NCBI GenBank assembly: GCA_903859815.1
Contig: CAIOOA010000016.1
Location: forward strand, 1-34,559
Direction of reading: 5' to 3'
DNA: 34,559 nt
Origin: an uncultured Methylococcaceae bacterium
Lineage (GTDB): Bacteria > Pseudomonadota > Gammaproteobacteria > Methylococcales > Methylococcaceae
The notes below the pieces were generated by a model, which was not told where the DNA came from, made no database searches, and saw only the letters and a program-made list of their open reading frames with translations. How positions within the stretch are numbered: position 1 is the stretch's first letter; each line of letters opens with the position of its first letter. The translations under genes and the position numbers were made by a program. Of this stretch, positions 5,680 to 34,431 are shown piece by piece.

Positions 5680-5781
5680 TTCTCCTCCCCGTGAGTCTTC
5701 GTTTTTGTTATTGAAACGGACAGGGTTTTAAACTGCCCCATGTCGCGCATTAACGTTTGCCTAATCAAGGCAATTGTCAGC

Positions 5782-5797
5782 GGCAATTTGTGCGCCA
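5782..5797 (-). promoter_or_regulatory. Sigma-54 (-24/-12) promoter of hupSLCDH
   Basis: Minus-strand TGGCGCAcaaaTTGCC matches TGGCACR-N4-TTGCW with two mismatches and keeps the invariant GG-N10-GC. It would start transcription near 5770, about 90 nt before hupS. Sigma-54 control with an HoxA/HupR or NifA-type activator is known for many uptake hydrogenases. I found no TGT-N10-ACA site upstream, which argues against direct NifA binding. Confidence 0.6.
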
Positions 5798-5830
5798 GCT
5801 TTAATTCTTCAATTGATACAGTAACCTAGC

Positions 5831-5849
5831 CATAACCTACAAGGTTATG
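5831..5849. promoter_or_regulatory. Perfect 19-bp palindrome upstream of the hup promoter
   Basis: CATAACCT-aca-AGGTTATG, perfect 8-bp arms, about 35 bp upstream of the hup -24 box. Its size and position suit a dimeric regulator. The regulator is unknown; closeness to the -24 box is tight for a classic enhancer-binding protein. Confidence 0.45.
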
Positions 5850-6163
5850 AACAGGATAAAATACGACACAATCATAAAAAATTGTCGGTTTTGCTCCATT
5901 CACCTAATAAACCAAATGAGGGCAACTATTGCTTATTTGAAAATAATTCTAAAAAATAGATTGCCTTTGTGGTATGGGTACTGTATTATTGGAGTCGGTG
6001 TAAAGAGGTTCGCGCCAAGCAAGTCAGCGTTATTTTATTTGTCAAAAAATACATTCCTGCTCCAACTGCCCGCCATTCCAGAATACCCATTTTTTTTCAA
6101 TTTCTCATACTTTGAGTTATTGAAAGTTTTTGCGCATACAGCGCGTATTTCAAGAGATTTAAT
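5850..6163 (+). other. AT-rich leader region of the cold-shock gene, no supported gene
   Basis: About 310 nt between the hup control region and csp. A reading frame over 5847-6191 has no recognisable motif, runs into csp in another frame, and its start overlaps the palindrome at 5831-5849. I read the stretch as promoter plus a long 5' untranslated leader, which is usual for cspA-type genes. I could not fix a promoter with confidence. Confidence 0.4.
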
Positions 6164-6373
6164 ATGTCACAACAGCAAAATGGAACCGTAAAATGGTTCA
6201 ACGAAGCCAAAGGATTTGGATTTATTCAACGCGAAAACGGTGCCGACTTGTTCGTGCATTTCCGTTCGATTTCTGGTCAAGGATTCAAGTCCCTGACTGA
6301 AGGTCAGCGCGTTAGCTTCACCGAGGTCAGCGGACAGAAAGGTCCGCAAGCTGAAAACGTTGTTGCCCTGTAA
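6164..6373 (+). CDS. Cold-shock domain protein (CspA family)
   Basis: This small single-stranded nucleic-acid binding protein is an RNA chaperone. At 69 aa it is a single cold-shock domain. The RNP1-like motif KGFGFIQRE and RNP2-like motif LFVHFRSI are both intact, and the N-terminus [16 protein letters not shown] is the family signature. The start is followed directly by conserved sequence, and a rho-independent terminator follows closely, so it is monocistronic. Which Csp paralogue it is cannot be told from sequence alone; induction by cold is family knowledge, not shown here. Confidence 0.96.
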
Positions 6374-6399
6374 TATCAGCGGGTAAACGTTCAAGCCAG

Positions 6400-6432
6400 A
6401 AAAGCAGGCTGCTCACAGCGCCTGCTTTTTTT
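6400..6432 (+). terminator. Rho-independent terminator of the cold-shock gene
   Basis: Perfect 10-bp stem AAAAGCAGGC (6400-6409) with its complement (6420-6429), a 10-nt loop and a run of seven T. It starts 27 nt after the csp stop codon. Confidence 0.9.
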
Positions 6433-6507
6433 GCCCTGCCGTCGGATGCGTTAACCACTACGCATCGTCTTTTATCAAAGTTGTCTTCAACATAAGGAGG
6501 CCAACGC

Positions 6508-15420: not shown

Positions 15421-15825
15421 ATGGATGACACCGAATGGCCTTGCCCAAATAAAAGCCTAAAATACGATAAAGGTGATAATCGACATAAACATTCAGGGAA
15501 AGACAAAGAAGCTAAAGTAGTTTATGAAGAGGGTAAATGGGTGGGAAAATGTCCTAAAGGGTTTTCTATTAAAGTTGCTCAGAATCTACTTGAAAATGGT
15601 ATACCTGAATTTCGCAAGACAATACCGGAAAAGCCTCGTAGAATTTGGTCTTATTATTCAGGCGTAATATACGCGGCATGTTCTTCTGAAAGCGAGGAAG
15701 GAAAAATTTGGCATGGCTACCCAGTAAAAGATGAACCCCCACGAAAAATTTTGGAAAAACTCAAAAAATTGGCTTCTGAACGAGGCGAGGAAAAACTAAT
15801 CAAAAAGTGGTTGAAAAAAGAATGA
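15421..15825 (+). CDS. Lysine-rich hypothetical protein paired with an ImmA/IrrE protease
   Basis: I do not recognise this 134-aa protein. It is rich in Lys and Glu, with cysteines in CPNK near the N-terminus and KCPKGF in the middle, and a basic coiled C-terminus (KILEKLKKLASERGEEKLIKKWLKKE). No HTH is visible, unlike the Xre-type partners usual for ImmA proteases. Base composition is AT-rich compared with nif neighbours (23 G+C in the first 60 bases). Its stop overlaps the start of the protease gene (ATGA), so the two are coupled. Ribosome site is weak (AGAG). It could be the protease's substrate, inhibitor or antitoxin. Confidence 0.72.
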   Translation: MDDTEWPCPNKSLKYDKGDNRHKHSGKDKEAKVVYEEGKWVGKCPKGFSIKVAQNLLENGIPEFRKTIPEKPRRIWSYYSGVIYAACSSESEEGKIWHGYPVKDEPPRKILEKLKKLASERGEEKLIKKWLKKE

Positions 15826-17297
15826 GTAAAAAAAGTCTGACTTTTGGTTCCAAAGATGGAATGCGTTTTATATTAGACTGGCGTAGCGATTATCCGACGG
15901 GCAATGGGCCTATTGGTAAATCTTGGGGGGAAATGCAACTATGGGTACAAGATACTTTGGTATGGGGATATAAAGACAAATCAGGAAAAACTAGAGGGAT
16001 TGCTTGGAATTGGATTGATATTCTTGAATTTTTGGGAAACGCTTGGCCTTATTTAATTGAGGAAGAGCAACATCCAATAGCCTTTGGCTCTGATTCCAAA
16101 CAGCCTACCTATTTAAACGAACTTTGGGTTAATGTAAAGCAGCGACTGCACAATCTTCCTGATACTGAAGCAGATGAAGAAGATGAGTTATTCCGTGATT
16201 TCTTAGCAGTACACGATTTTTCGGAAGCGCTTCATGGAGCATCTGTTCCGAAGTTACTATGTTTGCGGCGAGGGAATCAGCTATTGGCAGCAACAGAACG
16301 GCAGGAATGGGTGCTGCCTTTTGCAGATACCTTATCGACCTTGCAAAGCTTAGGCGACAGCATTTTGTCTCGCCTTGATGAATTAAAGGATCGGCGTTCG
16401 GAGATTGCCCGTAATCGTTGGAATGAGCGTGATTCCAGTATGCCTTTGATGCAGCGTTGGCAAATTGCCACCGGTATGGAAGCGGATCAACTCCGTCGAA
16501 TTTTGCCAAAAAATATCAATACTGCTGCTGCGAACGATGAAACTTATCAAATCAAAGCTGCCGCTCGAATGCTTGGCAAAAAACTTACAGAAGGCCAGTT
16601 ACGCGACTTGCTTGAAAGTATTAACAACATAGAACATACTGCTGGTTTTGATCTATCCGATTTGTGGCTTGATGCGACGAATATATTGCGTCAACATGAA
16701 TCTGACAAACCAGCGATACAGGGCTATAACTTGGCGAATATGCTGAGAGAAGCCATAAATTGCCCTAGCGGGAAAGTTGATCCAGAAGCCTTGTTATCAG
16801 AGTGGGGCGTTGTAATTCAAGAATTTGAAATGGGCTCTAGTGATTTAGATGCCATTGCCGTATGGAGAAATAAATCCACTCCAATCATAATGTTAAACAT
16901 GGCAGGCCCACGTACCAAGTTCTCGACCGGGAAACGGTCAACGCTCGCACATGAGATTTGTCATATTTTGGTTGACATGGATGGTGCTTTACCAGCCATT
17001 GAAGTGCTTGGAGGAGAGGTAGCCCGACCCATTGAACAAAGGGCTGATGCTTTTGCCGCCGAATTCCTGCTGCCCCGCGCTCAAGCTAGGTTCTATTTCG
17101 AGCAGAAATTGGCGATTGCCTCTGATGAAGAACGTGAGAATGCAATTCGTCTAGCGGTAGGTGATCTTGCCAAAGAATATGAAGTCAGTCACGAAATGAC
17201 TGTTTGGCAAATACGAAATTCTTCTGCTATCTCAAGAGAAGATGATGACCAGAAATTAAATAAATACATCAACTCAATCTATAAGCCAAATACCTGA
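15822..17297 (+). CDS. ImmA/IrrE-family zinc metallopeptidase with long N-terminal extension
   Basis: The C-terminal third is an ImmA/IrrE gluzincin domain: TLAHEICHILVD holds the HExxH zinc motif (His377, Glu378, His381), and EQRADAFAAEFLLP provides the third ligand (about Glu405). These peptidases typically cleave repressors to switch phage, stress or toxin genes. The N-terminal 270 or so residues, which include a tryptophan-rich start (SWGEMQLWVQDTLVWGY) and a helical DELKDRRSEIARNRW segment, have no match I can name. The start at 15822 (491 aa) overlaps the previous stop (ATGA); the longer frame from 15807 is less likely. Composition is AT-rich, suggesting transfer together with the upstream gene. 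Confidence 0.85.
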   Translation: MSKKSLTFGSKDGMRFILDWRSDYPTGNGPIGKSWGEMQLWVQDTLVWGYKDKSGKTRGIAWNWIDILEFLGNAWPYLIEEEQHPIAFGSDSKQPTYLNELWVNVKQRLHNLPDTEADEEDELFRDFLAVHDFSEALHGASVPKLLCLRRGNQLLAATERQEWVLPFADTLSTLQSLGDSILSRLDELKDRRSEIARNRWNERDSSMPLMQRWQIATGMEADQLRRILPKNINTAAANDETYQIKAAARMLGKKLTEGQLRDLLESINNIEHTAGFDLSDLWLDATNILRQHESDKPAIQGYNLANMLREAINCPSGKVDPEALLSEWGVVIQEFEMGSSDLDAIAVWRNKSTPIIMLNMAGPRTKFSTGKRSTLAHEICHILVDMDGALPAIEVLGGEVARPIEQRADAFAAEFLLPRAQARFYFEQKLAIASDEERENAIRLAVGDLAKEYEVSHEMTVWQIRNSSAISREDDDQKLNKYINSIYKPNT

Positions 17298-17667: not shown

Positions 17668-17683
17668 TGGCCCATAGTTTGCT
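17668..17683 (+). promoter_or_regulatory. Sigma-54 (-24/-12) promoter of nifE
   Basis: TGGCCCAtagtTTGCT matches TGGCACR-N4-TTGCW with one mismatch and has GG-N10-GC. Transcription would start near 17694. This excludes the frame start at 17683 and leaves ATG 17707 or 17722 for nifE. Confidence 0.85.
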
Positions 17684-17721
17684 TGGTTCCTTCCAAAGTC
17701 CAACCAATGGCAGGAACAGGT

Positions 17722-19104
17722 ATGAAATCAAACAAACAAATTGCCGAGATTTTGGATGAACCGGCTTGTGAACACAATAAGAAGTCCAAATCAGGCTGTT
17801 CCAAGCCGAGTCCCGGCGCCAGTGCCGGGGGTTGTGCTTTCGACGGGGCGCAGATTGCCTTATTGCCCATCGTCGATGTGGCCCATATTGTCCACGGGCC
17901 GATTGCCTGTGCCGGCAGTTCTTGGGACAACCGGGGAACCCGCTCTTCTGGGCCGACCCTCTATCGAATGGGCATGACGACTGACCTGACCGAACAAGAC
18001 ATAGTCATGGGCCGGTCGGAAAAGCGTTTGTTTCATTCCATTAAACAAGCGGTGGAAACCTATGCCCCACCTGCCGTTTTCATTTACAACACCTGCGTTC
18101 CGGCCTTGATTGGCGACGACATTGAAGCGGTGTGCAAAGCTGCCAGTGAACGCTTCGGTGTGCCCGTGGTTCCCGTTGATTCGGCGGGTTTCTATGGAAC
18201 CAAGAACATGGGCAACCGCATTGCCGGCGATGCCATGGTGAAATATGTCGTCGGAACCCGCGATCCTGACCCCCTACCTGCTTCGGTGCAAAGACCGGGC
18301 ATTACGGTGCATGACGTGAACCTGATTGGCGAATACAACATCGCTGGCGAATTTTGGCATGTGTTGCCGTTATTGGATGAGTTGGGTTTGCGGGTGCTTT
18401 GCACCTTGTCCGGCGATGCCCGTTTCCGCGAAGTGCAAACCATGCACAAGGCCAAGGTCAATATGATGGTGTGTTCCAAAGCCATGCTCAATGTGGCTCG
18501 CAAGCTGGAAAAGCAATTCGGCACGCCGTGGTTCGAGGGCAGTTTTTATGGCATTAGCGACACTAGTCAAGCCTTGCGCGATTTCGCCCGTTTGATCGGC
18601 GACCCTGACTTGACGGCCCGCACCGAGGCGTTGATCGCCCGCGAAGAGTCCCGCATCCTTGCCGCGCTGGAACCGTGGAAGCAACGGCTCAACGGTAAAC
18701 GGGTATTGCTAAACACGGGTGGCGTGAAAAGCTGGTCGGTCGTGTCGGCTTTGCAAGACTTAGGAATGGTGGTGGTTGCCACCGGCACCAAGAAATCGAC
18801 CGAAGAGGATAAGGCTCGCATCCGCGAACTGATGGGCGAGGAAGCCTTGATGTTGGACGATGTCAGCCCAAGGAAATTGCTGCAAGTGGTCAAGGATTAC
18901 CGCTGCGACATTCTGATTGCCGGCGGTCGCAATCTATACACTGCGCTTAAGGCACGGCTGGCGTTCCTAGACATCAATCAAGAACGGGAATTCGGCTATG
19001 CCGGTTATGACGGTATGTTGGAGCTAGTTCGACAATTAGCCTTGACCATCGAAAGCCCGGTGTGGGAGGCTGTTCGCACCCCTGCGCCTTGGCGCACTTT
19101 GTAA
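17722..19104 (+). CDS. nifE: NifE, nitrogenase FeMo-cofactor scaffold alpha subunit
   Basis: NifE forms with NifN the scaffold on which the NifB-cofactor becomes FeMo-co. The sequence parallels Azotobacter NifE nearly throughout: [10 protein letters not shown] near the start, [74 protein letters not shown] and [20 protein letters not shown]. Cys38 and the cysteines in GPIACAGS and YNTCVP are the expected cluster ligands. I chose ATG 17722 (460 aa) since it aligns with the known N-terminus and has AGGA 8 nt upstream. Notably nifN does not follow; the next genes are an unknown and nifF. It has its own NifA/sigma-54 promoter. Confidence 0.96.
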
Positions 19105-19676: not shown

Positions 19677-20213
19677 ATGGGCAAAATTGGCATCTTTTTT
19701 GGTTCCGACACCGGCAATACTCGCCGGGTTGCAAAATCCATCCACAAAAAACTGGGCGATGATGCTGATGCACCTGTCAACGTCAATAAAGCCACTGTGG
19801 AAGACCTGCTTAAGTACGATGCATTAATACTCGGTACGCCAACCTTGGGCGATGGCGAACTCCCCGGCTTAACATCCGGGGCAGGTGCCGAAAGTTGGGA
19901 GGAGTTTTTGCCGAAATTGAAAGATGTAGACTTATCTGGAAAGGTTGTCGCGTTGTTCGGTTTGGGCGACCAAGAAGGATATGGACATGAATTTGTCGAT
20001 GCTTTGATTTTCATCTATGACCAAGTGATTGAATGCGGCGCAACCGTCGTCGGTTCTTGGCCTACCGATGGCTATAGCTTTGAAGCGTCGAAAGCCGTAG
20101 TCGAGGGTGATTTTGTCGGCTTGGTGCTCGACAACGACAATCAAAAGGATCAGACCGAAGAACGTATCGACGAATGGCTGGAAATCGTCAAGCCTGAGTT
20201 GCTGGCTGATTGA
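19677..20213 (+). CDS. nifF: NifF, long-chain flavodoxin, electron donor to nitrogenase
   Basis: FMN-binding flavodoxin that reduces the nitrogenase Fe protein (NifH). The phosphate loop is GSDTGNTR near the N-terminus. The long-chain insertion and the TSGAGAESWEEFLPKL segment match Azotobacter-type NifF, as do ILGTPTLGDGELPG, VALFGLGDQ and SWPTDGYSFEASKAV. At 178 aa the length is right. A ribosome site GAAGAGG lies about 9 nt upstream. The context, behind nifE, supports NifF over a housekeeping flavodoxin. Confidence 0.93.
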   Translation: MGKIGIFFGSDTGNTRRVAKSIHKKLGDDADAPVNVNKATVEDLLKYDALILGTPTLGDGELPGLTSGAGAESWEEFLPKLKDVDLSGKVVALFGLGDQEGYGHEFVDALIFIYDQVIECGATVVGSWPTDGYSFEASKAVVEGDFVGLVLDNDNQKDQTEERIDEWLEIVKPELLAD

Positions 20214-20766: not shown

Positions 20767-21933
20767 ATGTCCGAGAATATCGCTTGCCCACAAACAAGTA
20801 CCCCAAAAAACATCGTTGTCTTTTGTGACGGAACTTGGAATCAGCCAGACCAGAAGACTAAGGAAGGTGGCAAACCATGCCCCACCAATGTCGCTAAATT
20901 GTTTGAAGCCGTGTGTCCGTTCGACATCAACGGGAATCCACAACTCGTACATTACCTCAGAGGAGTCGGAACCCGTCGGATGGAACGGATCAAGGGTGGC
21001 GGTTTTGGCTACGGCATTTCCGACAACATCAAGGAAGGGTATCAGTTCATTTGTAGCAATTATCAACCCGGTGACCGCATATACCTATTCGGCTTCAGCC
21101 GGGGTGCTTATACCGCTCGTAGTATTGCAGGTTTTATCAATAATGTAGGGATTTTACGAAAGTCCCTTTTTTATAAGACCAATGAAGCTTTCGATCATTA
21201 TCGGGATAACTCCAAGGAATGGCAGCCGGACGCTCAGAATTCCATCGATTATCAGAAAGCCAACGGATATCTAGATGACCATGGCGAGCCAAGCAAGAAA
21301 ATCCATTTCCTGGGCGTGTGGGATACGGTAGGTGCCTTGGGAGCGCCCTATGGAGTGGTCATACGCTGGATTATTGACAAGTTATTCAAATGTAGTTTTC
21401 ACCATACCGATTTGTCTTCGAGCATTGAAAGTGCCTACCATGCGGTTGCCATGGATGAAAAGCGCTGGCCGTTTCGTCCGACTCTTTGGGATCAGGAAGC
21501 CATTGATCCGGCTATTCGAGACAATTTTGAACAAATCTGGTTTCCCGGCGTGCATTCTGACGTAGGTGGCGGTTACCCGGAAACCGCGCTTTCGGATATA
21601 CCCTTAAACTGGATGGCAACAAAGGCGAGTCATCGCGGATTGTGCTTGGACCTCAACTTGGTGCAAGATCCTGAGGTTTCCCCTGTCCCAAACTCCATCA
21701 ATGCAGCAGCCAATATGCATGATTCTCAGACATGGCTTTACCGTCTGGCAACCGTGTTGTTTGTCAAACTACCCTCTGTCTTAAAGATACCGCTGCCAAG
21801 TTGGGATAAGAAAGAGGCGGCCACCGATCCAATAGAGATTAAACGGATTGACTGGAATGGTAACTATAATAGGGCAGTTCCAGACGATGCCAAATTTGAC
21901 ATTACCCTTACTGGCTCAAGCCAGCACCCTTAG
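20767..21933 (+). CDS. DUF2235 (Tle1-like) alpha/beta-hydrolase, putative phospholipase
   Basis: The DUF2235 domain fills the 388 aa: NIVVFCDGTWNQ at the start, the nucleophile elbow GFSRGAYTAR (Ser111), FLGVWDTVGALGAP (Asp186) and FPGVHSDVGGGY (His263), i.e. a complete Ser-Asp-His triad as in type VI lipase effectors of the Tle1 family. There is no signal peptide or membrane segment. GGGAG lies 8 nt upstream of the ATG. No type VI secretion genes (VgrG, adaptor, immunity protein) are next to it. It faces the five-gene GTPase operon, with only 41 nt between stops, and could be that system's membrane-attacking effector or an unrelated neighbour. Confidence 0.88.
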   Translation: MSENIACPQTSTPKNIVVFCDGTWNQPDQKTKEGGKPCPTNVAKLFEAVCPFDINGNPQLVHYLRGVGTRRMERIKGGGFGYGISDNIKEGYQFICSNYQPGDRIYLFGFSRGAYTARSIAGFINNVGILRKSLFYKTNEAFDHYRDNSKEWQPDAQNSIDYQKANGYLDDHGEPSKKIHFLGVWDTVGALGAPYGVVIRWIIDKLFKCSFHHTDLSSSIESAYHAVAMDEKRWPFRPTLWDQEAIDPAIRDNFEQIWFPGVHSDVGGGYPETALSDIPLNWMATKASHRGLCLDLNLVQDPEVSPVPNSINAAANMHDSQTWLYRLATVLFVKLPSVLKIPLPSWDKKEAATDPIEIKRIDWNGNYNRAVPDDAKFDITLTGSSQHP

Positions 21934-21974: not shown

Positions 21975-23081
21975 TCACCCTGACGGCAAACAGGCGCTAG
22001 TCAACCACTCGCCATAACTCCCGCCATGCCCGATTAGGCCGGACAAGCTACATGCCTGTTCGGCTTCCCGCTTCCCGTCAAAATGCGAGGCGACAAACGC
22101 AAATTCGGGCAGGGAAGCCAGCCGTAAATATTGGTCTTGGGCATACTGTTGGAATTCGCGGGGCGGGCCGATGAGGTCGTTTAAAAATTGATGATCCGGC
22201 TCATGGTAGAGGGTGAGTATCTCAACGCCGAGACGGTGCAGACGCGACGCTTCGGTTTCGACATCTTGTTGGCGGACACAGGCATCCCCTCCCTTTGGCA
22301 CGGGCCGCACAATGGAATGGCCGGGCGAGTCGCCACTGAGCAGCAGCAGCTTGCGCGCAGCGGGTCGCCAATGAAAAGACTGACAGGCTGCCAGTGCGTC
22401 CGCCAAGGCATCGACAAAATCCCCCCCGCTGCTGGGTTTATTCAATAGCAATTGTCGCTCGATTTGTTCCGGGCTGGACACTCGCAACAAACCCGGGTGG
22501 ATGTCCGTTGGAAATAGCCGGTAGGCAGGTTGCAAATCGGCTGCGGTGACATTCGGAATCGGTTGGTCGCCAAAGGCTAAGACGGCACAGCGGCATTCTT
22601 GAAAATGCCCCATTAACGCATCCATAAAACCGCGCAACTTCGCCACATGAGCGGCCCAGCGGTCCTGGTCTGCCAGCAGCGGCCAAGATTTTTTCCCCGG
22701 CTCAAAAACCCGCACCGTCGCATCAATGACGATAACCATATCCAAATTCCCATGGTGTCTCGTCGGCACTATAGGATGCACAGGAGGCTGCAAGGCAGGA
22801 TTGTTCGGCAATAAAGCCATGGGGCGGCCGGGACATTCGACAAGCAACTTGCCTGCTTCGTCTTGTCGAATTACCAGCGACAGTATTTCCCCGCCGTCGC
22901 CAGGTATCTCGGCGCGAAACAACACGGTGTCACCCGTTTGCACCAACACATGCAAATGCGTCGCCCCCGGCAAATTGCGCAATTCCACCCGACAGCCAGT
23001 TCCCGCCCCGTTCAAGGGCAGTGGATGGGCATGCAAGTCCGATGCATTGGCGGGAAAGGCGATTAGGTCAAAGGTGGGCAT
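21975..23081 (-). CDS. vWA-like domain protein, last gene of the GTPase-system operon
   Basis: This 368-aa protein has an N-terminal beta-rich region (1-100) and then a von Willebrand A-like Rossmann domain: MVIVIDATVRV (Asp120) at the place of the MIDAS DxSxS motif, here degenerate, CAVLAFGDQP, SSGGDFVDALADALAAC and RKLLLLSGDSPGHS. Metal binding is therefore uncertain. No signal peptide is seen. It starts 41 nt after the preceding gene and is GC-richer than it. vWA proteins in conflict systems usually act as adaptors or assembly platforms; that is inference here. Confidence 0.7.
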   Translation of the reverse strand: MPTFDLIAFPANASDLHAHPLPLNGAGTGCRVELRNLPGATHLHVLVQTGDTVLFRAEIPGDGGEILSLVIRQDEAGKLLVECPGRPMALLPNNPALQPPVHPIVPTRHHGNLDMVIVIDATVRVFEPGKKSWPLLADQDRWAAHVAKLRGFMDALMGHFQECRCAVLAFGDQPIPNVTAADLQPAYRLFPTDIHPGLLRVSSPEQIERQLLLNKPSSGGDFVDALADALAACQSFHWRPAARKLLLLSGDSPGHSIVRPVPKGGDACVRQQDVETEASRLHRLGVEILTLYHEPDHQFLNDLIGPPREFQQYAQDQYLRLASLPEFAFVASHFDGKREAEQACSLSGLIGHGGSYGEWLTSACLPSG

Positions 23082-23122
23082 GATGTCTCATGATTAGCTA
23101 AGCTTATTACTCATTGTCTTTT

Positions 23123-24511
23123 CTATTTTGGTTTGATTTTGTCCAGCCTAGCGGTTAATTGTTTGATTTGCTCAAGGGCTTTTTCAGGTGCTGTTGCGAC
23201 GCAAATTTTTGCATTGAATACCTGCTCAAAATTTTTCTTTAGCTCATCATCTTGAAAATCAATGTTTGTAGGAGATTGCGGCCAACATGTTATATTGGCA
23301 TCTGAGGTTAATGATATGTCCTTGTTGCTATAAAGTTCATCGAATTTATTGGCTATCTTGTTCCATGACTCCGTACTTAAATGACTTTTTGCTTCGGCAT
23401 TGGCGAGTAAGGCTTGAAGTTTGATGATACCCCAAAAGAATGATCTTTCTACCGATAGGGCAGCGGCATTTTCCACATTTAATTCAACAATATCTTCTTG
23501 TGTAAAATATGGACTTAAAATCGTTTTAAATCGATTGTCGGTGGCAGATTTGGATTTTAGTTTTGTGACTAGAGCAAAGATGGCATTCTGTAAATCAGAG
23601 TTGGATTTTGCTGTCTTTTTACTTTGATCGCTATTTTCATTCAAGGCTTTGGCAGTCGCTGTTTCAACGTTACTTGAACTTAAAGGTGTTGAAGCCTTTG
23701 CGTCGGCAGCTTGCTCGGAAAATGATGATTGACCTAATGGTTGGCCACTATGACTATCTTGTTGCGTTTCAGAATGTGAGTGGGCTGCTATGGTGGGGGT
23801 TAGAGCGAGCCAAAGATGAGGGTAAGCATAACTTAATACCAATAGCACAACCACAAAACCTAAACTTATCCATGAGGTTAGGGTGAACGGAGACTGCATG
23901 TCACCATTAAATGCGGCAGTTCCGTTTTCTGTCAGGCCAGCTCTTTCACTAATAATTCGTTCCAAGCGTTCAATTCTCAAATCTAAGCTCGGTCTTCTTA
24001 GGATATGCAACATATTGGTTTCGAAGTCAGCAGGAAACCAGGAAGAATAATTTTCGCGAAAAGAGCGAAAATGGGCTTCCGCCTCGGTGTCGACGGGTAT
24101 GATGAGATGGGCATCTCTTGCCAGCGGTAAGCGTAAGGAAATATTCGTAAACGGATATGAGCGCAATTCACCACCATACTCAATGCAAAAAATAGTTTGT
24201 GGCGGTTCAAACCCACCCACATTTTCTTCTCCGACTTTGGATATTTCGACGATTAGACGACCGTCAGATCGATTTTCTTCAACCAGCAAGCCACCACCGC
24301 TTTGACGCATAGACTCACGTAGGTTGGCTTTAAAGGCTGTGTATATTGCCGGGTTGCCGGTACTAAGCTTCTCTTGATAAAAACCATCATCTAACAGTTG
24401 CTTAGTATAAAATAGCAGAAAATGAAGACTATCTTTGAGTTCAATTCTAATCCGCTGTTCTTTTCCACCATCCGACTGACGGTTGCGGAAGAATGTCAAT
24501 AGATCGTTCAT
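23123..24511 (-). CDS. Single-span membrane protein of the GTPase-system operon
   Basis: Not recognised. The 462-aa protein has a soluble N-terminal region (about 1-205) with strands such as RIRIELKDSLHFLLFYTKQLL and IFCIEYGGEL, one transmembrane helix (about 212-235, WISLGFVVVLLVLSYAY), a Ser/Gln-rich linker (245-300) and a helical C-terminal domain. It starts 11 nt after the large GAP1-like gene, so the two are co-transcribed. The sequence is AT-rich like the 3' half of its neighbour. It may connect the cytoplasmic GTPase machinery with the membrane. Confidence 0.72.
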   Translation of the reverse strand: MNDLLTFFRNRQSDGGKEQRIRIELKDSLHFLLFYTKQLLDDGFYQEKLSTGNPAIYTAFKANLRESMRQSGGGLLVEENRSDGRLIVEISKVGEENVGGFEPPQTIFCIEYGGELRSYPFTNISLRLPLARDAHLIIPVDTEAEAHFRSFRENYSSWFPADFETNMLHILRRPSLDLRIERLERIISERAGLTENGTAAFNGDMQSPFTLTSWISLGFVVVLLVLSYAYPHLWLALTPTIAAHSHSETQQDSHSGQPLGQSSFSEQAADAKASTPLSSSNVETATAKALNENSDQSKKTAKSNSDLQNAIFALVTKLKSKSATDNRFKTILSPYFTQEDIVELNVENAAALSVERSFFWGIIKLQALLANAEAKSHLSTESWNKIANKFDELYSNKDISLTSDANITCWPQSPTNIDFQDDELKKNFEQVFNAKICVATAPEKALEQIKQLTARLDKIKPK

Positions 24512-24522
24512 GGTTCTGCACT

Positions 24523-27500
24523 CTATTTTAAAATTAATTGTTCAGAATATTGAGTATAGCCTTTATGATTTAAGGCGGCATTAAGCGCTTTGTTTATTTT
24601 TATGATGTCACCTATTGCATTAGCTTTAGTTTCTTTATTATCGTTTAAAATATTATTAGTGGTTTCGCATATCGCTTTAATGGAACGTTCTAAGCTATTG
24701 CTTGGGTATTCACGGCGACGTTTGTCTATACTTTCTAGTAAAGCCACCCACCAAACGTCTTGATCTTGAAATTTAACCAGCTTCTTTTTATATTTGAATG
24801 CATAGTCTTCTATAACATAAACATGCTTCACAAACTGTGAAATAACAATAGCAAGCCTATCTTCTGGAGATAGACTGGCATATAATTCAAAAATCGGCAG
24901 ACGATGGTTAGTAGGGTATTGGCTGTTAATATGTCTAAGGAGGTCTAGGTGATTTTTTATCGATTGTTCTAATATTTTAATGCTACCATCGTTTATCAAA
25001 TGTTTAGTTTTGTCCTTCTTATTGTATTCGACAACTTCAAGAAAAGGATGTTTAGATTCTTGAAAATCATTTGAAGCAATAACATTCCAAGCCTGATTAT
25101 TAATGTCTAACTTTTCTAGTGCTGTTATTATATTCTTTGCGTACCAACTATTAACTGAAAGACTTTGGCTGACATCTTTATCTAAATAATTGGCAATAAA
25201 GGTGTACCCCTTTTCTAGTAGCCTATTAGCGGCTGCTCTTCTTATAGATGTTGGTGGCCGTGGCAGCATAATTCTGGATTTTGACGAGATATACTTATCA
25301 AACTGATCAAGTATGCTTTTGTTGACCTGATCTCCACCTAACCAGTTGGCGCATTGATCAACAAGTATGGGATCATTCCAGCAAATATTCTTAGTTTCCT
25401 CCATTGCAATCAATGCTTGTTCGGGATTTTTTCCAAATTCAGCTAAAACTGATTCAATCCGGGCATGTTCAGCCTTGGCCGTATGATTAGGACCACTATG
25501 TTCGAGCAAATACTTGGAAGAAGGCAAATCCATTGGCTTCAATTCCTTAATCTGAGTTTCAGTTATCCAGAGAAGTGTCTCGCCCGTAAACGAAGATGGT
25601 ATTTCATTTGGGTGAGTTTTTTTGTATGCTTTCAGAATATTTTCCCGTATTTCTGTTTTTTCTATATCTGTTTTGTCACGAATAGAGTGAGCAATTTCCG
25701 CCAACTCGACTAAGGCATCCAAATCGACGCACAACTCGGCAAAGTCTGCCCATTGCTCTTCTTCGAAGAATTCAATCCTAGGCCATGGCATCCCGCCTTG
25801 ATGCTCTGTGCCACAGCGCAGGTTACGCATTTCTTGCCCAGACAGGCGACTTAAGTCATCCTTCACCTGCTTCCAAGTTTCCAGCGTAGGCTCAGGGGTA
25901 TCGGCTTCCTTCCATAAAGGGCAAGTTAACCAAGCCATTCCCGCTTTGCGGCAGTCTTTCTTTTCCTTCAGATTGGATTCAGCTTCACGCCGCCAACCCA
26001 ACCAAGCACCTGCATTGACCAATGCCTTGGTGGTTTTCTCAATATCCTGTCGCCACTCTTTCGTTAATCTTGCATACACACCCTTTACTCGCTCGGCATT
26101 TAGTTTCGAGCCAGCGAGTCTTAAATATCTGAGCAATCTTGTTGTGTCTAACAACGTCGCCGTCTTTTCAGAATTCAAATAGGGTTGGGCAAGAAGCGCA
26201 TCCCATTGCTGTTTCTGTTTGGCAGACTCCTCGTTATATAAAACCAACAACCATTTGGGATTCAGGCAACGCCAACCGTCATCGAATGCGACTTCTATTA
26301 TGCGTTTTCGAGCTTCATCATTGCCGAAACGCCAACGGTCATCCAGCATTCTTTGCATCAACGGATTGTCATTCGATGGGTCGCTATTGGAATCGGGAGC
26401 TGGAAGCAGATCGGCAAGCCGGATATACAGTTCCCAGTCATTGACGACATCCAAGGTTTTCCCCAGAGTCTGAACAAAATTAGCCAATTCTTCGGGGATG
26501 CGGGCGCGAAACTGGCGCAAACCGTCCACGATGCGCGAGGGAAGTTTGCCCCAACGTCGAAAACCTTGTGGGTCACTTAGCCAATCCCTAGCCATTTGTT
26601 GCAAGATGGGCACGTCATTTTGCGTTGCGCGGTCAAGGAATAAGCCGACCCAAGCGGCATTTAGCTGGTCGGAAACAGTGGCCTCGGCCAAGACCTGATA
26701 GTTTTCTGCCTTTTTCGCCAGTTCCGCCAATGTTTCACTCTCGGCGACACGATGCTGCAACACGCCTGCATCCTTTTCTATTTGTAACCATCCATGCGCA
26801 GGTGTCGCTACGTTAAGACTTGATAAAGGAACCTTTCGGGTTTGTTCGGCTACGTTGGCACGGTCATCGATTAGGGTGGGATGTTCCGCCAGCAACTGCA
26901 TCAGGCGTTGGAACGGGTGTGAACCGTCCGCCATGCCTTGCCCGATCTGTTGCCACCAGCCGGACAGGCTATTGTCTAAAGTCAGATGCAAACGCTCCAT
27001 TACTTTGGTGACAATCGACTGCAATTTCCGCTCGCCATCACTCCTCAACAAGTCGGGATGGGCCAGCACAAGCTCGCTCAAGACATTAACCGGAAACTGC
27101 GCCCAATCGCCATCGTCCAGCAATTTCTCCCAAGGCAGAATGGGCGTTTTGGTTCGCATATAGTCCCGGAACACTTCCTCACGGTCGGCTGCATCACCCG
27201 CCAGCGCCATTGCCAAGATATAGTCCAATTGCAGCAGGTCCACGTCATCTGCCCGTAAGTCTCGCTTTCGCTGCTGACCGGCAAACGCGCTAAACGGCAG
27301 CAAGCCTTGGGGTTGATTGAGGGCTCCCGCCACCGCCACTTTGGCATAGGCTTCCACTGCGGGGTCCAAGGGCCGACTGGATTTAAGCACCTTGCCTTGG
27401 TGGTCCAGCAAGGTGGCATGGGCTTGCGCCGACAAGGCTTCGGCTATGTTGTCATCCGGTAGTGCCACCAAATTGGCAGCCAAATTGCGGATAAAGCGTC

Positions 27501-28182
27501 CGGGTTGGCGGGTGTACAAGCGTATCTTGCAGTGTTCTTTCAGGTTGGCCGGCAAAGCGGCACGGGAGAAGGAGATCAAGGTGTACAAGGCCGAACCCGT
27601 TTTGAATTCCTCCAAAGGTGCGGCAATCAGCAGTGGATGCTTGGGTTGTTCCATCGCTTGCAGCAGATGGGCAAGAAAGGACGTTGCTGCCGAAGCTTGG
27701 GTTCGCAATTGTGTCAGCCAGTGGGCTGGCATGTCCGTGGGTGAAAGTCTGGACAGTCTCGCATTCGATTCACCTATTTGATCTTGTGTAGGATCGAACA
27801 CAGCCGAGCAGCCTAGATAAACACCGGGGTCGAATGGGTTGCACGGATCGTCCACTAAAAAGGCTCGGGCATGGCTGAAATAAGCAGCGCGACGGTCATA
27901 AATACCCGCCGACGTCAGTCGCACGACGAATAATTTGCCCCCTTGACTGAAGCAAGACCAAGCTTCCAACCGGTCTTGTAGGCTTTGGTGGTCGGCAGGG
28001 ACAGAATCCAGCGTCATCCATGGGCGAATGACTCGCAGCAGTTCCTCATCTTCGAATAGTGTGTCATCCGTGCCCTGCAAATATTGCTCGCCGTGGGCAA
28101 CGGGCATGGACGGTCCCTCGCCACGCCCAGACTGGGCTTGGCCGCGATAGGCGGAAAGTGGCTGCTGCGCTTGAGATTCCAT
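24523..28182 (-). CDS. Giant GAP1-like (GTPase-associated protein 1) protein
   Basis: This 1219-aa cytoplasmic protein has no membrane segment. The N-terminal part (about 30-250) looks like the N-terminal domain of GTPase-associated protein 1: a stretch GKLFVVRLTSAGIYDRRAAYFSHARAFLVDDP recalls the G-R-x-(G/A)-N/Y-F-x-H-A pattern of that family, followed by a P-F-D-P-G-VYLG segment. The rest is helical. The gene starts 9 nt after the GTPase gene with TAGGGG as ribosome site, which is strong support for a GTPase partner. From about residue 830 on, the DNA becomes clearly AT-rich (24523-25700), so the C-terminus may be a swapped module. No catalytic motif was recognised. Confidence 0.7.
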   Translation of the reverse strand: MESQAQQPLSAYRGQAQSGRGEGPSMPVAHGEQYLQGTDDTLFEDEELLRVIRPWMTLDSVPADHQSLQDRLEAWSCFSQGGKLFVVRLTSAGIYDRRAAYFSHARAFLVDDPCNPFDPGVYLGCSAVFDPTQDQIGESNARLSRLSPTDMPAHWLTQLRTQASAATSFLAHLLQAMEQPKHPLLIAAPLEEFKTGSALYTLISFSRAALPANLKEHCKIRLYTRQPGRFIRNLAANLVALPDDNIAEALSAQAHATLLDHQGKVLKSSRPLDPAVEAYAKVAVAGALNQPQGLLPFSAFAGQQRKRDLRADDVDLLQLDYILAMALAGDAADREEVFRDYMRTKTPILPWEKLLDDGDWAQFPVNVLSELVLAHPDLLRSDGERKLQSIVTKVMERLHLTLDNSLSGWWQQIGQGMADGSHPFQRLMQLLAEHPTLIDDRANVAEQTRKVPLSSLNVATPAHGWLQIEKDAGVLQHRVAESETLAELAKKAENYQVLAEATVSDQLNAAWVGLFLDRATQNDVPILQQMARDWLSDPQGFRRWGKLPSRIVDGLRQFRARIPEELANFVQTLGKTLDVVNDWELYIRLADLLPAPDSNSDPSNDNPLMQRMLDDRWRFGNDEARKRIIEVAFDDGWRCLNPKWLLVLYNEESAKQKQQWDALLAQPYLNSEKTATLLDTTRLLRYLRLAGSKLNAERVKGVYARLTKEWRQDIEKTTKALVNAGAWLGWRREAESNLKEKKDCRKAGMAWLTCPLWKEADTPEPTLETWKQVKDDLSRLSGQEMRNLRCGTEHQGGMPWPRIEFFEEEQWADFAELCVDLDALVELAEIAHSIRDKTDIEKTEIRENILKAYKKTHPNEIPSSFTGETLLWITETQIKELKPMDLPSSKYLLEHSGPNHTAKAEHARIESVLAEFGKNPEQALIAMEETKNICWNDPILVDQCANWLGGDQVNKSILDQFDKYISSKSRIMLPRPPTSIRRAAANRLLEKGYTFIANYLDKDVSQSLSVNSWYAKNIITALEKLDINNQAWNVIASNDFQESKHPFLEVVEYNKKDKTKHLINDGSIKILEQSIKNHLDLLRHINSQYPTNHRLPIFELYASLSPEDRLAIVISQFVKHVYVIEDYAFKYKKKLVKFQDQDVWWVALLESIDKRRREYPSNSLERSIKAICETTNNILNDNKETKANAIGDIIKINKALNAALNHKGYTQYSEQLILK

Positions 28183-28191
28183 AGTCGGCCC

Positions 28192-29670
28192 CTACATCAA
28201 TGCATTTTCCCGCTCACAGAGCGCCACCAGCAACGGCAGTTCCACGTGAACCGGAACGGGCGGATCGAAGCGCCCCTGGAAATGATGTTCAGAATGATCC
28301 CTTTCGATAGTGTCCAAGGTTTTTCCCTCAATGGCGCTCAAAGGAATAAACCAAGGTTGCCCGCCTTTGAAATTTAGCAAGTTGGGAATCCCGCTGACGC
28401 GGGTGTCGCTAATTTTTGTAAACTCAAGCCGTATATAGTCGGAAATCTTTCGCGCATTCGCCATGTAACGGGCCACCCCATGGCCTTTGGCGAGTTCGCT
28501 TAGATAAGTGTCGGGGGCATCTAGGTAGGGTGTGATCCAACGGTCACGCAGAGCCGACAATTTGGTACGGGTATCGTCGGCCATGGTCAGGGCTAAAATA
28601 GCGCGAACCGGGTTATCGCACTTATTCTTTTCCCGCAATTTGTCATAGTTATGCAATACCTGATGAAAGCCTTTGATGGTTTTTTCGCGGGTTTTCCAAT
28701 CATCCTCCGACAAGTCGGGCCGGGGGAAGGCAGCCCATAAGGGCAGACAAAACACCATGACGGTGGCATCCAGATAGGCGTCTTTCCATAACTCCAACTC
28801 TTCCTTGCCCATGTATTCCAATTCCAGCAAACCTTCCCCGGAGGCTTCGAAAAACTCGACATCCAAGGTCGCATGGCCTAGCCCTAAAATCCCGGTGCGA
28901 TAGGGCAAGCTCAAGCGATACCAGCGTTGGGTGTCAGCCAAGGTCTGCGCAATCCGTTTCCATTCATTGTAATGCTCGACAAAACGAAGCAGGTTAAGCA
29001 ATCTTGCCGGATCATTCCGGTTGACGGCGGTGTGTAAACGGGTACCCTGCGGGGCCAAATAATAAGATAAGGAACCCGCCTTGTCGGTGTTAAAGCTACG
29101 TGCCACCATGGCTTGGAACAAGTAGCTTTTACCCACCCCCTTGCCGCCGATGATCCCTAGTTTGGGTTCGCCAGCCTTGCGTTCAAATGACGGGTCGTCA
29201 CTCTGACCGGATTCATACACGGGTTCGGGTGAGAGATAAGCGGTCGAGATCGGGTCATGATGAGTGGATGCCGAGGGTTCTGATGTTGATGAGGTTTCCA
29301 CTGGCGGATGTTGCGGTGCCGCCTCCTCGCCAAAATTGGAAAGAATAGACTCAAAAATGGATTCTTGATTGATGGACTCTTGGCTTATCTCGTCTTGGGT
29401 CTGATCTTTGGAAAAAATGTCAAACTTTGATTTTGACAGCGAAACGGGCTTTCTTTCCGATTCAGGTGGAAATAGTGGCTCCTCGTCAGGCTGACTATCA
29501 GCGTCGTCATCCATTTCAGCCAGTTCTGGCGCTTGATTGGCCGAGTAGCCCAAGCGATGGGAGGTCACTGGCGAGTCCTGATCCGACTCCTCATCAAATT
29601 CTGCAATGACAGGCAGTGCTTCATCCTGTGGAGCCTTTAAGGGGTTTCTGTTGTCTTTATTCATAGGCAT
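28192..29670 (-). CDS. P-loop GTPase with acidic disordered N-terminus (TRAFAC/double-GTPase-like)
   Basis: The first 165 residues or so are acidic and serine-rich, with no fold apparent. The P-loop is GGKGVGKS (about 175-182), the Asp of the next strand is in LDVEFFEASGEG (about 270-280), the place of Walker B/switch II, and LALTMADDTRTKL fits the place of the NKxD base-recognition motif, though not its letters. I read it as a divergent GTPase of the kind coded with GAP1-type proteins. Starts at 29673 (GTG), 29670 or 29664 are possible; the first sits directly on the upstream stop (TAAGTGATG). The tight junctions put it at the centre of the operon. Confidence 0.75.
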   Translation of the reverse strand: MPMNKDNRNPLKAPQDEALPVIAEFDEESDQDSPVTSHRLGYSANQAPELAEMDDDADSQPDEEPLFPPESERKPVSLSKSKFDIFSKDQTQDEISQESINQESIFESILSNFGEEAAPQHPPVETSSTSEPSASTHHDPISTAYLSPEPVYESGQSDDPSFERKAGEPKLGIIGGKGVGKSYLFQAMVARSFNTDKAGSLSYYLAPQGTRLHTAVNRNDPARLLNLLRFVEHYNEWKRIAQTLADTQRWYRLSLPYRTGILGLGHATLDVEFFEASGEGLLELEYMGKEELELWKDAYLDATVMVFCLPLWAAFPRPDLSEDDWKTREKTIKGFHQVLHNYDKLREKNKCDNPVRAILALTMADDTRTKLSALRDRWITPYLDAPDTYLSELAKGHGVARYMANARKISDYIRLEFTKISDTRVSGIPNLLNFKGGQPWFIPLSAIEGKTLDTIERDHSEHHFQGRFDPPVPVHVELPLLVALCERENALM

Positions 29671-29673
29671 CAC

Positions 29674-31518
29674 TTAATGGCGGTAAAACACTAGCTTGAT
29701 GTACTCTTGCCCCGAACCCTTGACATACTCCCAAGCCTCTGCGCAAGCGGAATTGCCGGATTTGGGAGGGCATTGGGGCGGGATTTGCAGTTGATCGGCC
29801 TGCTGTAAACTTTTCTGCAAATCGATCACCTTCAACAGTTGCTGTAAAGCTTGGCGGGCTTCGGGAAAGGCATTTTCCAGTTCATATGCGAAACTTTCCA
29901 GGTTGGTCCCCGGTGGAACGGGAAGGAAAAAGAAAACACGGTCCGGTTTGTCCGTACTGCTGCGCGAGTCGTAAATCAAGCGCAACTCGGCGCGCAACGC
30001 AAGCTTGTCTTTCGCCGTGGCGACATAGGTTCGGCAATGCAAGCTGAATATTTTTTCATCGCGTTTCTTCTTTTCACAATTGGAGGCGCGATGCGTGTCC
30101 ACTCGCTTTTCCGCATCTTGCTTGGACAGGTCGAGCAATTCCTGTATGTCGGCTGCCCCAATGTTTCCAATCACCGGCATATGCAATACTTTGGACAGGG
30201 GAAGCCAAGGATAACTGGTTTCGTCTTTTGCAGGATGGTCGTCAAAATAAGGCAGCAGCCAGTGTTCCGCCCAACTGTCTTTCATCGCCAGCATCTGCTT
30301 GTCCCAGCCGTCATGGTATTTTTTACGGAATTCGGTTTTAAGCGTTTGCAAGGCTGGGCTGTCATTGACTTCAATGATGCTTTCCATCTCATCAAACAAG
30401 GATTTCCTGCGCTTGTAGCGCTCAACCACTTGCCGACTGTTGGCATCAAACGATAGATTTTTGTCCCAAGGACCGTCATTGACAAACGACGTGTAAATGA
30501 CGGGGGCTTCTTGCAATGGGATGCGAGGGCTGTTGATGAGCGTGTCCAGCAACGCGGCATAAGCCTGTTTGGCCTTTTCGGGTTTGCCTAGCTTCAGTGC
30601 GACAGCCCATAATGCTTTGAAATCATCAAGGGTCCCGGTGGACAAGGCCGGGTCAGGCTTGCCTTCGTTGTCTGCGGCAAGCTGCCGATCCAATCGACGG
30701 GGTAATTCAGCCACCAGACCGTCCAGCAACGTCTTTTCTACCTCAACGAGTTCGGCATGACGTTTGACCATCCCCTCATCTTGGTGGAACCGGGTGGGAA
30801 TGTCGCGGAAAGAAAGATTGTTGACCGCACTGGCGAGTCCGTCAAAAGCAGCGGAATATTCCTGCTTGGAGCATCCGCCGGCCGCCTCGCTGCAACGTCC
30901 CAAGTCTTCGGTTTGCGTCCGCAATTCGTTGATCGCACCCTCCAATCCGTGCCTCCAAACTTCGATGACATCCCCTCCCATGAAGTAAAGGCTTGGCAAA
31001 ATCAACAGCAACACCCAAACTAAGCTGAACGGAGCGATTCGCTGCACCCAATCGGTGTCTGGATGCAGGCGCAACAGCCTAGGCGAAAGCGTCAGGGTGG
31101 CGGCAAAACCGGCCACGCTCGCCGCGTCAACCAAAGGAACCCAGTCCGGCGAGGGGCTGAAGAGTTGGATCAATGCAAAGACTAGGGTCAGTCCCGTCAA
31201 CATAAGCGCCCAAATGCGAGGCAAAAGCGGGCCGGGACGATGCCTGCAACGCAGCATAATGGCACTCGCCAAGCCGGCCGCGCAGAAGCCAAGCACAACG
31301 ACAATCAATCGGTTGAGGCTGGGATTGTCAACCAAGGCTATTTTAAACAATCCCCTCAAATCCGCGTTGCGCTGCAAAAACCCAAAGACGAGCAAACCCA
31401 CGATGGCTGATGCGAGCGACAACGCCGCCGCTGGTGGCGCCCAAGTTCCCACGCCGCCACTTTGCAAAGGGTCGGGCAATTGGTTTTGCATTTCGCGACT
31501 ATTGACTTCATCGCTCAT
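29674..31518 (-). CDS. Polytopic membrane protein, first gene of the GTPase-system operon
   Basis: This 614-aa protein has five hydrophobic segments (about 28-48, 68-90, 102-120, 128-148, 160-182), then a soluble domain of some 430 residues with cysteines in RCSEAAGGCS and near the C-terminus (CPPKSGNSACAEAW). I do not recognise the family. The domain side depends on topology; with an odd number of spans and a cytoplasmic N-terminus, the large domain would be periplasmic. The start has AGGGG 10 nt upstream and a plausible sigma-70 promoter behind. It could be the membrane sensor or pore of the system. Confidence 0.75.
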   Translation of the reverse strand: MSDEVNSREMQNQLPDPLQSGGVGTWAPPAAALSLASAIVGLLVFGFLQRNADLRGLFKIALVDNPSLNRLIVVVLGFCAAGLASAIMLRCRHRPGPLLPRIWALMLTGLTLVFALIQLFSPSPDWVPLVDAASVAGFAATLTLSPRLLRLHPDTDWVQRIAPFSLVWVLLLILPSLYFMGGDVIEVWRHGLEGAINELRTQTEDLGRCSEAAGGCSKQEYSAAFDGLASAVNNLSFRDIPTRFHQDEGMVKRHAELVEVEKTLLDGLVAELPRRLDRQLAADNEGKPDPALSTGTLDDFKALWAVALKLGKPEKAKQAYAALLDTLINSPRIPLQEAPVIYTSFVNDGPWDKNLSFDANSRQVVERYKRRKSLFDEMESIIEVNDSPALQTLKTEFRKKYHDGWDKQMLAMKDSWAEHWLLPYFDDHPAKDETSYPWLPLSKVLHMPVIGNIGAADIQELLDLSKQDAEKRVDTHRASNCEKKKRDEKIFSLHCRTYVATAKDKLALRAELRLIYDSRSSTDKPDRVFFFLPVPPGTNLESFAYELENAFPEARQALQQLLKVIDLQKSLQQADQLQIPPQCPPKSGNSACAEAWEYVKGSGQEYIKLVFYRH

Positions 31519-34221: not shown

Positions 34222-34237
34222 TTTCTAAGCACAAAAA

Positions 34238-34300
34238 TTGTTCGTAGTCCCGGCTTTAGCCGGTCTTCATTGTTCGTAGTCCCGGCTTTAGCCGGTCTTC
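34238..34300 (+). repeat. Tandem REP-type repeat, two 31-nt copies plus related hairpin
   Basis: Two identical copies (34238-34268, 34270-34300; 32-nt period) each hold the hairpin CCGGCTTTAGCCGG after TTCGTAGTC. A third, diverged unit with CCGCCTGAAGGCGG follows at 34311-34324 in the opposite sense (GTACTAC). REP-like extragenic palindromes behind the GNAT-like gene; they may also stabilise or end its transcript. Confidence 0.75.
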
Positions 34301-34431
34301 TGTGATCTTTCCGCCTGAAGGCGGTACTACAAACCTGTCCAGATGGCTTCAAAAATCTAAAATGAGAATGACTAGGGTGGCCCGGATGAAGCGAAGCATC
34401 ATCCGCAGCAATTCTCAGTTTGGCGTGGAAG

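Follow-up and report, generated by a model that had tools for sequence, protein, structure and literature searches.

Do five tightly packed genes in the genome of an uncultured Methylococcaceae bacterium form a conflict system and, if so, do they form it on their own? The genes occupy positions 21975-31518 of a stretch of 34,559 nucleotides (GenBank assembly GCA_903859815.1, contig CAIOOA010000016.1; contig C16 of the 5.8 Mb genome G000), which is referred to as the window throughout. An earlier note, made from the sequence alone, had described them as a GTPase-centred operon whose five products act as one unit. Our data support a conserved unit, which is apparently not the whole but about half of a larger system. 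We lean towards the view that the five genes represent one of two modules, here module A, which together encode a GTPase/tubulin conflict system of the membrane, probably anti-phage: the combined list of parts resembles that of the GTPase-centric systems that Kaur et al. (2020, eLife, PMC7159879) predicted to act in conflicts, above all their tubulin theme, and the five genes are therefore read as one half of a new two-module variant.

In transcription order the genes were named MEM, GTP, BIG, TM1 and VWA. All five, previously described as closely spaced genes of the minus strand, were recovered there as open reading frames: MEM (29674-31518) encodes a membrane protein of 614 aa, GTP (28192-29673, with a GTG start) a GTPase of 493 aa, BIG (24523-28182) a protein of 1219 aa, TM1 (23123-24511) a single-span membrane protein of 462 aa and VWA (21975-23081) a protein of 368 aa. 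The intergenic gaps measure 0, 9, 11 and 41 nt; the tight packing and the upper end of the range given before (-1 to 41 nt) are confirmed, the lowest gap measured being 0. The nearest relatives of the operon are found in Methylococcaceae records, including Candidatus Methylumidiphilus alinenensis AMbin10, which belongs to the same genus as the window genome. In comparison with the relative genome G029, protein identity amounts to 94-96%, and to 86% in the fourth protein, TM1, and the ratio of nonsynonymous to synonymous substitution rates (dN/dS) is 0.20 for MEM, 0.18 for GTP, 0.23 for BIG, 0.39 for TM1, the highest of the five, and 0.23 for VWA. All five genes are under purifying selection and therefore encode maintained proteins, and homologues in the same order in other genomes indicate that the array is not a product of chance. 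At E up to 0.01, searches of Pfam, PADLOC and NCBIfam assigned none of the five proteins to a family.

Module A is carried by 13 genomes (G000, G025, G029, G783-G791 and G897), as revealed by a three-sequence GTP alignment run against genome contigs, which gave 12 loci (74 stretches pattern-matched), and by additional whole-genome searches. The order MEM-GTP-BIG-TM1-VWA is complete in nine of them (G000, G029, G025, G791, G785, G783, G784, G786 and G897), which span Methylococcaceae, Chromatiaceae, an uncultured proteobacterium and Acidobacteriota, so that a survey of gene neighbourhoods bears out the co-occurrence of the five genes. A MEM homologue lies directly 5' of the GTPase gene in 9 of the 13 carriers, its open frame spanning only 221 aa in G783 and G786; BIG was found in 12 of 12 carriers searched and additionally in G897, and directly follows GTP in 11 of 13, lying on a separate contig in G787 and G788. 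Contig ends cut the module in two carriers, and the order is kept as far as the contig runs: the contig of G790 starts inside GTP and continues with BIG-TM1-VWA, and in G789 one contig holds GTP, BIG and the start of TM1, and another TM1-VWA followed by module B. The distribution is patchy, comprising 3 of 7 genomes of the window's genus, 3 of 38 of its family and 7 of the 194 genomes from the family to which G783 belongs. Among 369 genomes of the class only G000 itself was recovered, together with one weak match in G326 (30% over 77 residues, with stops), which was dropped.

The evidence that module A has a counterpart comes from co-occurrence and from linkage, and the co-occurrence ties together two gene clusters that lie on different contigs. 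The second cluster, module B, is recognized by its WGK proteins, which are named after a conserved motif and carry or neighbour a second DO-GTPase. In a profile search of 80 genomes WGK was present in all 13 genomes with module A and in one of 67 without it (35 from the window's family and 32 from the family of G783, none with a GTP match); the resulting Fisher p of 4e-14 is overstated, because the genomes are not independent and three carriers (G785, G789 and G791) have no relatives among the controls. Within the genus, WGK occurs in 3/3 carriers vs 0/4 non-carriers (p 0.03). The exception, G806, has TUB1, TUB2 and MEMB genes (see below) in a more distantly related version, on a contig whose end falls inside the last WGK gene or immediately beyond it. 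Physical linkage was observed at five profile-checked loci, at which the VWA and WGK genes are adjacent and convergent (L105, L106, L143, L102 and L148, with gaps of 31, 2, 3, 140 and 91 nt). These loci belong to G791, G785 and G789 and represent second loci in G786 (BIG-VWA only) and G897 (BIG-TM1-VWA only), and the five genomes include proteobacteria and Acidobacteriota. Both modules also share a single contig in G025 and G783, the 38 kb contig of G025 (C27) encoding, in addition to the two modules, a SIR2-TPR protein and an array of proteins that match vWA weakly. The GTPase distances of the two modules correlate (r 0.94, 0/5000 permutations), a result that shared species history alone could likewise produce.

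In its full form module B has the order TUB1-TUB2-MEMB-CC-WGKD-WGK. Besides WGK proteins and a Tubulin_2 protein it encodes another large protein, a coiled-coil protein and a membrane protein whose end is MZB-like. In the window genome it is located on contig C82, where TUB1 runs off the contig end. The Tubulin_2 domain was recognized in all four TUB1 proteins scanned (E 9e-41 to 9e-45), a GGTGSG loop was noted in TUB1, and TUB1 homologues occur in the module-B stretches of G000 (partial, at the contig end), G025, G029, G791, G897 and G806. TUB2 was considered as a second tubulin and rejected, the comparison not being significant. Hydrophobic segments are found in four proteins of the two modules (MEM, TM1, MEMB and TUB2). 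A search of PDB sequences with the WGK profile gave no match at E up to 10. At locus L020 the WGK genes form a pair that lies tail to tail with VWA, and in one of the two a DO-GTPase domain passes the Pfam threshold. In a Holophagales genome (L150:398-3658) the module-B coiled-coil protein is joined to a protein kinase domain in one open reading frame. Close to module B (L037, on contig C82 of G000; L152, on contig C416 of G029) a gene encodes a protein of about 360 aa that is reminiscent of plasmid replication initiators; no Pfam family matched it at E up to 0.01.

The GTPase that gives module A its character is, by profile comparison, a diverged DO-GTPase, and its earlier description as a divergent P-loop GTPase stands. 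All its motifs lie on the minus strand. The P-loop GGKGVGKS (G1; 29125-29148) follows the pattern GGKG-x-GK[ST], which is present in 13 of 14 GTP sequences including the window's, the sole exception being an open frame in L013. The G3 or Walker B motif FFEASGE with its conserved glutamate (28834-28854; F[FL][ED][AG]SGE) and the G4-like LTMADD (28573-28590), which aligns with the SKxD stretch of DO-GTPases, are found in 14/14 sequences, and the G5-like PLSAIEG (28324-28344) is conserved as well. In hhalign comparisons GTP scored 94.7% over 167 columns against seven DO-GTPases, two of them from module B, and 96.5% over 252 columns, with E 7.4e-10 in a single comparison, against 14 (nine from module B; seven passing the Pfam cut-off, one below it and six unscanned homologues), the P-loop, the G3 glutamate, G4, G5 and a C-terminal element being aligned. 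Reversed-sequence controls scored 0.7% (7-sequence set) and 0.5% (14-sequence set), FtsY 6% and ParA 0.3%. The cut-offs of Pfam DO-GTPase1/2 (PF19975 / PF19993) were reached by 0/13 members of the GTP family, 12 of which gave no DO-GTPase match at E up to 10 (filters remove most weak ones) and one a match at E 0.15. Matches of PF19993 below the cut-off at L026-L033 were read as LptB, FtsY and ABC proteins, and these were used as hhalign controls. The AlphaFold model of GTP (mean predicted local distance difference test score, pLDDT, 61) is disordered up to residue 160; residues 1-160 have pLDDT below 50 and the N-terminus is of low complexity and acidic, in agreement with the acidic disordered N-terminus claimed before. 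The folds that Foldseek ranks highest for the model are those of G-alpha, Ran, Ras and EngB, with no match at E up to 0.001. GTP also matched the PADLOC model mad8 at E 0.011. GTPases are paired in 38% of known systems; a second DO-GTPase, in module B, passes the Pfam cut-off in G000, G025 and G791.

BIG begins 9 nt downstream of GTP, in the place that GAP1 proteins occupy next to DO-GTPases. An AlphaFold model of its residues 1-720 (mean pLDDT 74) shows an N-terminal alpha/beta portion, after which the chain forms alpha-helical repeats. The Foldseek matches were all weak and most of them were solenoids, with no match at E up to 0.001 in either PDB or BFVD; among them the type VI secretion regulator TagF (rank 24, E 0.25) was considered but not relied on.

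Of the remaining products of module A, MEM features four strong N-terminal hydrophobic segments and a weak fifth one near residues 127-145 (mean 1.44), followed by a soluble part, and its designation as a five-span protein is therefore fair; no convincing match was found among sequences of solved structures. TM1 has a single hydrophobic segment (residues 209-227) and is the single-span protein that had been proposed. For VWA the outcome is different: the degenerate vWA domain assigned to it before finds no Pfam match, and a resemblance exists at the motif level only. Its motifs VIDATVR (22710-22730), GGDFVDALADAL (22392-22427) and SGDSPGH (22317-22337) are, in our reading, similar to those of a vWA domain whose metal site is altered, DxTxR being invariant in 9/9 VWA sequences and the canonical metal ion-dependent adhesion site of vWA domains being DxSxS. 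An hhalign comparison of VWA with linked vWA-like proteins was not significant (P 0.08), and its control was weak too (P 0.025). Profile matches of VWA to LexA and to aminotransferases were judged to be noise. Two further observations concern MEM: in a second copy in a Holophagales assembly (L013:8284-9984) a ParA/MinD-like domain and the N-terminal part of MEM share one open frame, and at L020 a CoxE-like vWA gene (PF05762, E 7e-8; 5298-6485) is located on the opposite strand, some 1.4 kb upstream of MEM.

The surroundings of module B were inspected in 14 genomes by scanning chosen open reading frames, without a background rate, and contain effector- or defence-type neighbours in five: a SIR2-TPR gene in G025, calcineurin plus TIR or SEFIR in G897 and G790, a TIR-AAA-TPR gene at a distance of about 4 kb in G785 and type I restriction genes in G788. 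Beyond TUB1, G897 also possesses DrmD-like and TmtA-like genes. The PADLOC models matched by these neighbours are bSEFIR, ThsB, SIR2-Ago, DrmD and TmtA. In the window itself, a Tle1-like alpha/beta hydrolase gene (PF09994, E 7.5e-87; 20767-21933, plus strand) is convergent with VWA at a distance of 41 nt, at the position where module B begins in five other genomes. It is also present in G029, and no homologue was found at the other loci searched; its link to the operon is one of proximity, and it is possibly a lipase effector or a bystander. G897 further encodes proteins with FGE-sulfatase domains beside module A (L103:8381-10027) and near module B (L141:548-3775), domains that we equate with the FGS domains given as effectors in PMC7159879. 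In G029, locus L038 (contig C485) holds a GAP1-N2/GAP1-M protein above the Pfam cut-offs after a GTPase with a DO-GTPase2 match below the cut-off, and this genome therefore seems to hold a conventional GTPase-centric system too.

From these parts a mechanism can be outlined. The membrane proteins and the vWA-like parts would sense a disturbance of the envelope, with VWA acting as a vWA-like adaptor. GTP exchange on the DO-GTPases might then remodel a large scaffold, formed by BIG with its GAP1 position and helical repeats, and this change would cause the tubulin-like polymer to be nucleated or released at the membrane. Once assembled, the complex could license an exchangeable effector, which would be SIR2-TPR, calcineurin-TIR or TIR in the relatives and possibly the Tle1-like hydrolase here, and the licensed effector would halt growth or kill the infected cell. 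Polymerisation, sensing, the coupling to effectors and a role in defence are inferred.

Several observations weigh against a GTPase/tubulin conflict system. Tubulin was found in 5 of the 13 carriers (and in G806) and was not seen in the module-B stretches read of the other eight, where the contig ended or other genes were present and no genome-wide search was made; coiled-coil and WGK genes occur without tubulin in several carriers. A named effector near module B is missing from 9 of the 14 genomes, in the chosen frames scanned. In G787 and G788 the module is split: GTP and BIG-TM1 lie on separate contigs, and VWA did not turn up in the stretches that were read. The carriers are related to each other, seven of them coming from one family. 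On the side of the GTPase, ABC proteins reach 85% against GTP, over 24 P-loop columns only; the zinc ribbon present in 60% of known DO-GTPases is absent, the only cysteines being at 309, 352 and 486; and no homologue was found in phage, plasmid or viral contig collections. The Pfam scans, in which not all open reading frames were covered, named no FNIII-repeat or GASH component. The Pfam GAP1 domains are unmatched in 10/10 BIG members at E up to 10, so that the GAP1-like N-terminus claimed for the 1219-aa protein is not confirmed, and in G000 GAP1-M and GAP1-N1 found no match; matches of GAP1-M in G670 and G636 lie, by our reading, in respiratory-complex and other unrelated genes. Comparison of BIG with the GAP1 proteins of L038 and L043 by hhalign was not significant and was powerless, because the GAP1-side profiles comprised 1-3 sequences and the control pairs failed as well; GAP1 homology of BIG is therefore not disproved. 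The label 'GAP1-like' refers only to position and to the architecture in general. Nor did hhalign reveal a likeness between BIG and WGK (with three as well as with 17 WGK sequences), and WGK has no GAP1 match in the Pfam scans or in the same underpowered profile comparison.

What else could the two modules be? The strongest rival, to which we give limited but real weight, is an apparatus of cell organisation, in which a tubulin-like filament, GTPase switches and vWA-like proteins would serve bacteria that are large or that aggregate by positioning membranes, inclusions or contacts between cells. The combination of tubulin with several GTPase or scaffold proteins, the large genomes of the carriers (4.9-8.0 Mb), the nine surroundings of module B without a named effector, and the protein array of G025, in which vWA matches are weak and below the cut-off and hydrophobic segments suggest a location outside the cell, are all compatible with it. 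Against it speak the patchy presence, in three of seven genomes of a genus and seven of 194 of a family, the SIR2, calcineurin-TIR, TIR and restriction genes that neighbour module B in five genomes, and the placement of DO-GTPases in predicted conflict or membrane-stress operons in the consulted sections of PMC7159879 and PMC11237479. An improbable alternative is a response to envelope stress or lipid damage, in which the GTPase module would sense membrane damage, for instance by phospholipases such as the Tle1-like neighbour, and repair or reinforce the membrane. DO-GTPases are reported from some psp operons, with a predicted role in membrane-related stress (PMC11237479, in the part consulted), and the hydrophobic segments in MEM, TM1, MEMB and TUB2 and the hydrolase adjoining the operon would fit; yet the Tle1-like gene is restricted to G000 and G029 among the loci searched, and the Pfam scans of chosen frames named no PspA-like family.

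The same Tle1-like catalytic domain, together with the weak Foldseek match of BIG to TagF, might suggest an accessory module linked to type VI secretion or to a secretion-like process. We consider this very improbable, given that the module proteins have no match to a type VI secretion family in the Pfam scans (no genome search for core genes of this system was made) and that the WGK profile is without a PDB counterpart. Least probable of all is that the co-occurrence reflects shared ancestry or genome size only and that module A is an independent housekeeping operon. Carriers do cluster in few lineages with large genomes, but the convergent abutment of the modules in five genomes of proteobacteria and Acidobacteriota and the 3/3 vs 0/4 distribution within one genus argue against it. 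A more far-reaching and rather doubtful proposal is that of a membrane-anchored, tubulin-built bacterial 'inflammasome', encoded in two separable modules and common to distant phyla with large genomes, in which paired DO-GTPases and two unrecognised families of scaffolds, BIG and WGK, would control how a tubulin-like polymer assembles at the membrane, and this polymer would recruit and activate interchangeable effectors, either NAD-cleaving (SIR2, TIR) or lipases. The two-module GTPase/tubulin conflict system remains our preferred reading. Five plus about six co-travelling protein families are defined, most without a Pfam name, and the resulting set of about eleven genes is a concrete one for testing either defence or a new bacterial cytoskeletal function.

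Elsewhere in the window, a gene at 15807-17297 encodes a 496-aa protein that matches spr1629-type antitoxin, RmrA and CapP models and lies upstream of nifE (17683-19104) and of a flavodoxin gene (19677-20213). A short sequence of about 60-140 bp at 34229-34369 recurs many times, at roughly 73-96% identity, on other contigs of G000, G028 and G029, which suggests a small dispersed element. An empty site of the operon could not be read in sister genomes, whose flanks lie on different contigs.

The module proteins scanned match no PADLOC model at E up to 0.01, in contrast to their effector-type neighbours. With the MoxR-vWA ternary systems (PMC7159879) they share an NTPase switch, a vWA-like component, a large third component and exchangeable effectors, but a GTPase takes the place of MoxR, and a CoxE-like vWA gene is found near MEM in L020. 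The closest likeness is to the GTPase-centric systems with tubulin theme, for which the literature searched yielded no experimental test: DO-GTPases, a large protein directly downstream, a tubulin-domain protein and a membrane location are common to both. In the consulted sections of PMC7159879, TIR and calcineurin effectors are reported for GAP1-N1 systems, an alpha/beta-hydrolase is listed among the effectors of GTPase-centric systems, and vWA proteins are described, some facing outside with transmembrane segments, whereas vWA matches here are weak. The GTPase-centred conflict system suggested by the earlier note is thus supported in part: the DO-GTPase, a second module with another DO-GTPase and the SIR2, TIR and calcineurin neighbours fit the published predictions, and the GAP1 and vWA profiles do not add to this. 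Unlike the systems of PMC7159879, the present one has an undetectable GAP1, a GTPase without zinc ribbon and two separable modules. The tubulin theme (of the GAP1-N2 type) is called restricted to firmicutes and actinobacteria in the part of that source consulted, in contrast to its occurrence here in Gammaproteobacteria, together with an uncultured proteobacterium, and to that of the WGK, coiled-coil and membrane parts also in Acidobacteriota. Our findings would accordingly extend the tubulin-bearing branch of GTPase-centric systems to Gammaproteobacteria, with related modules in Acidobacteriota.

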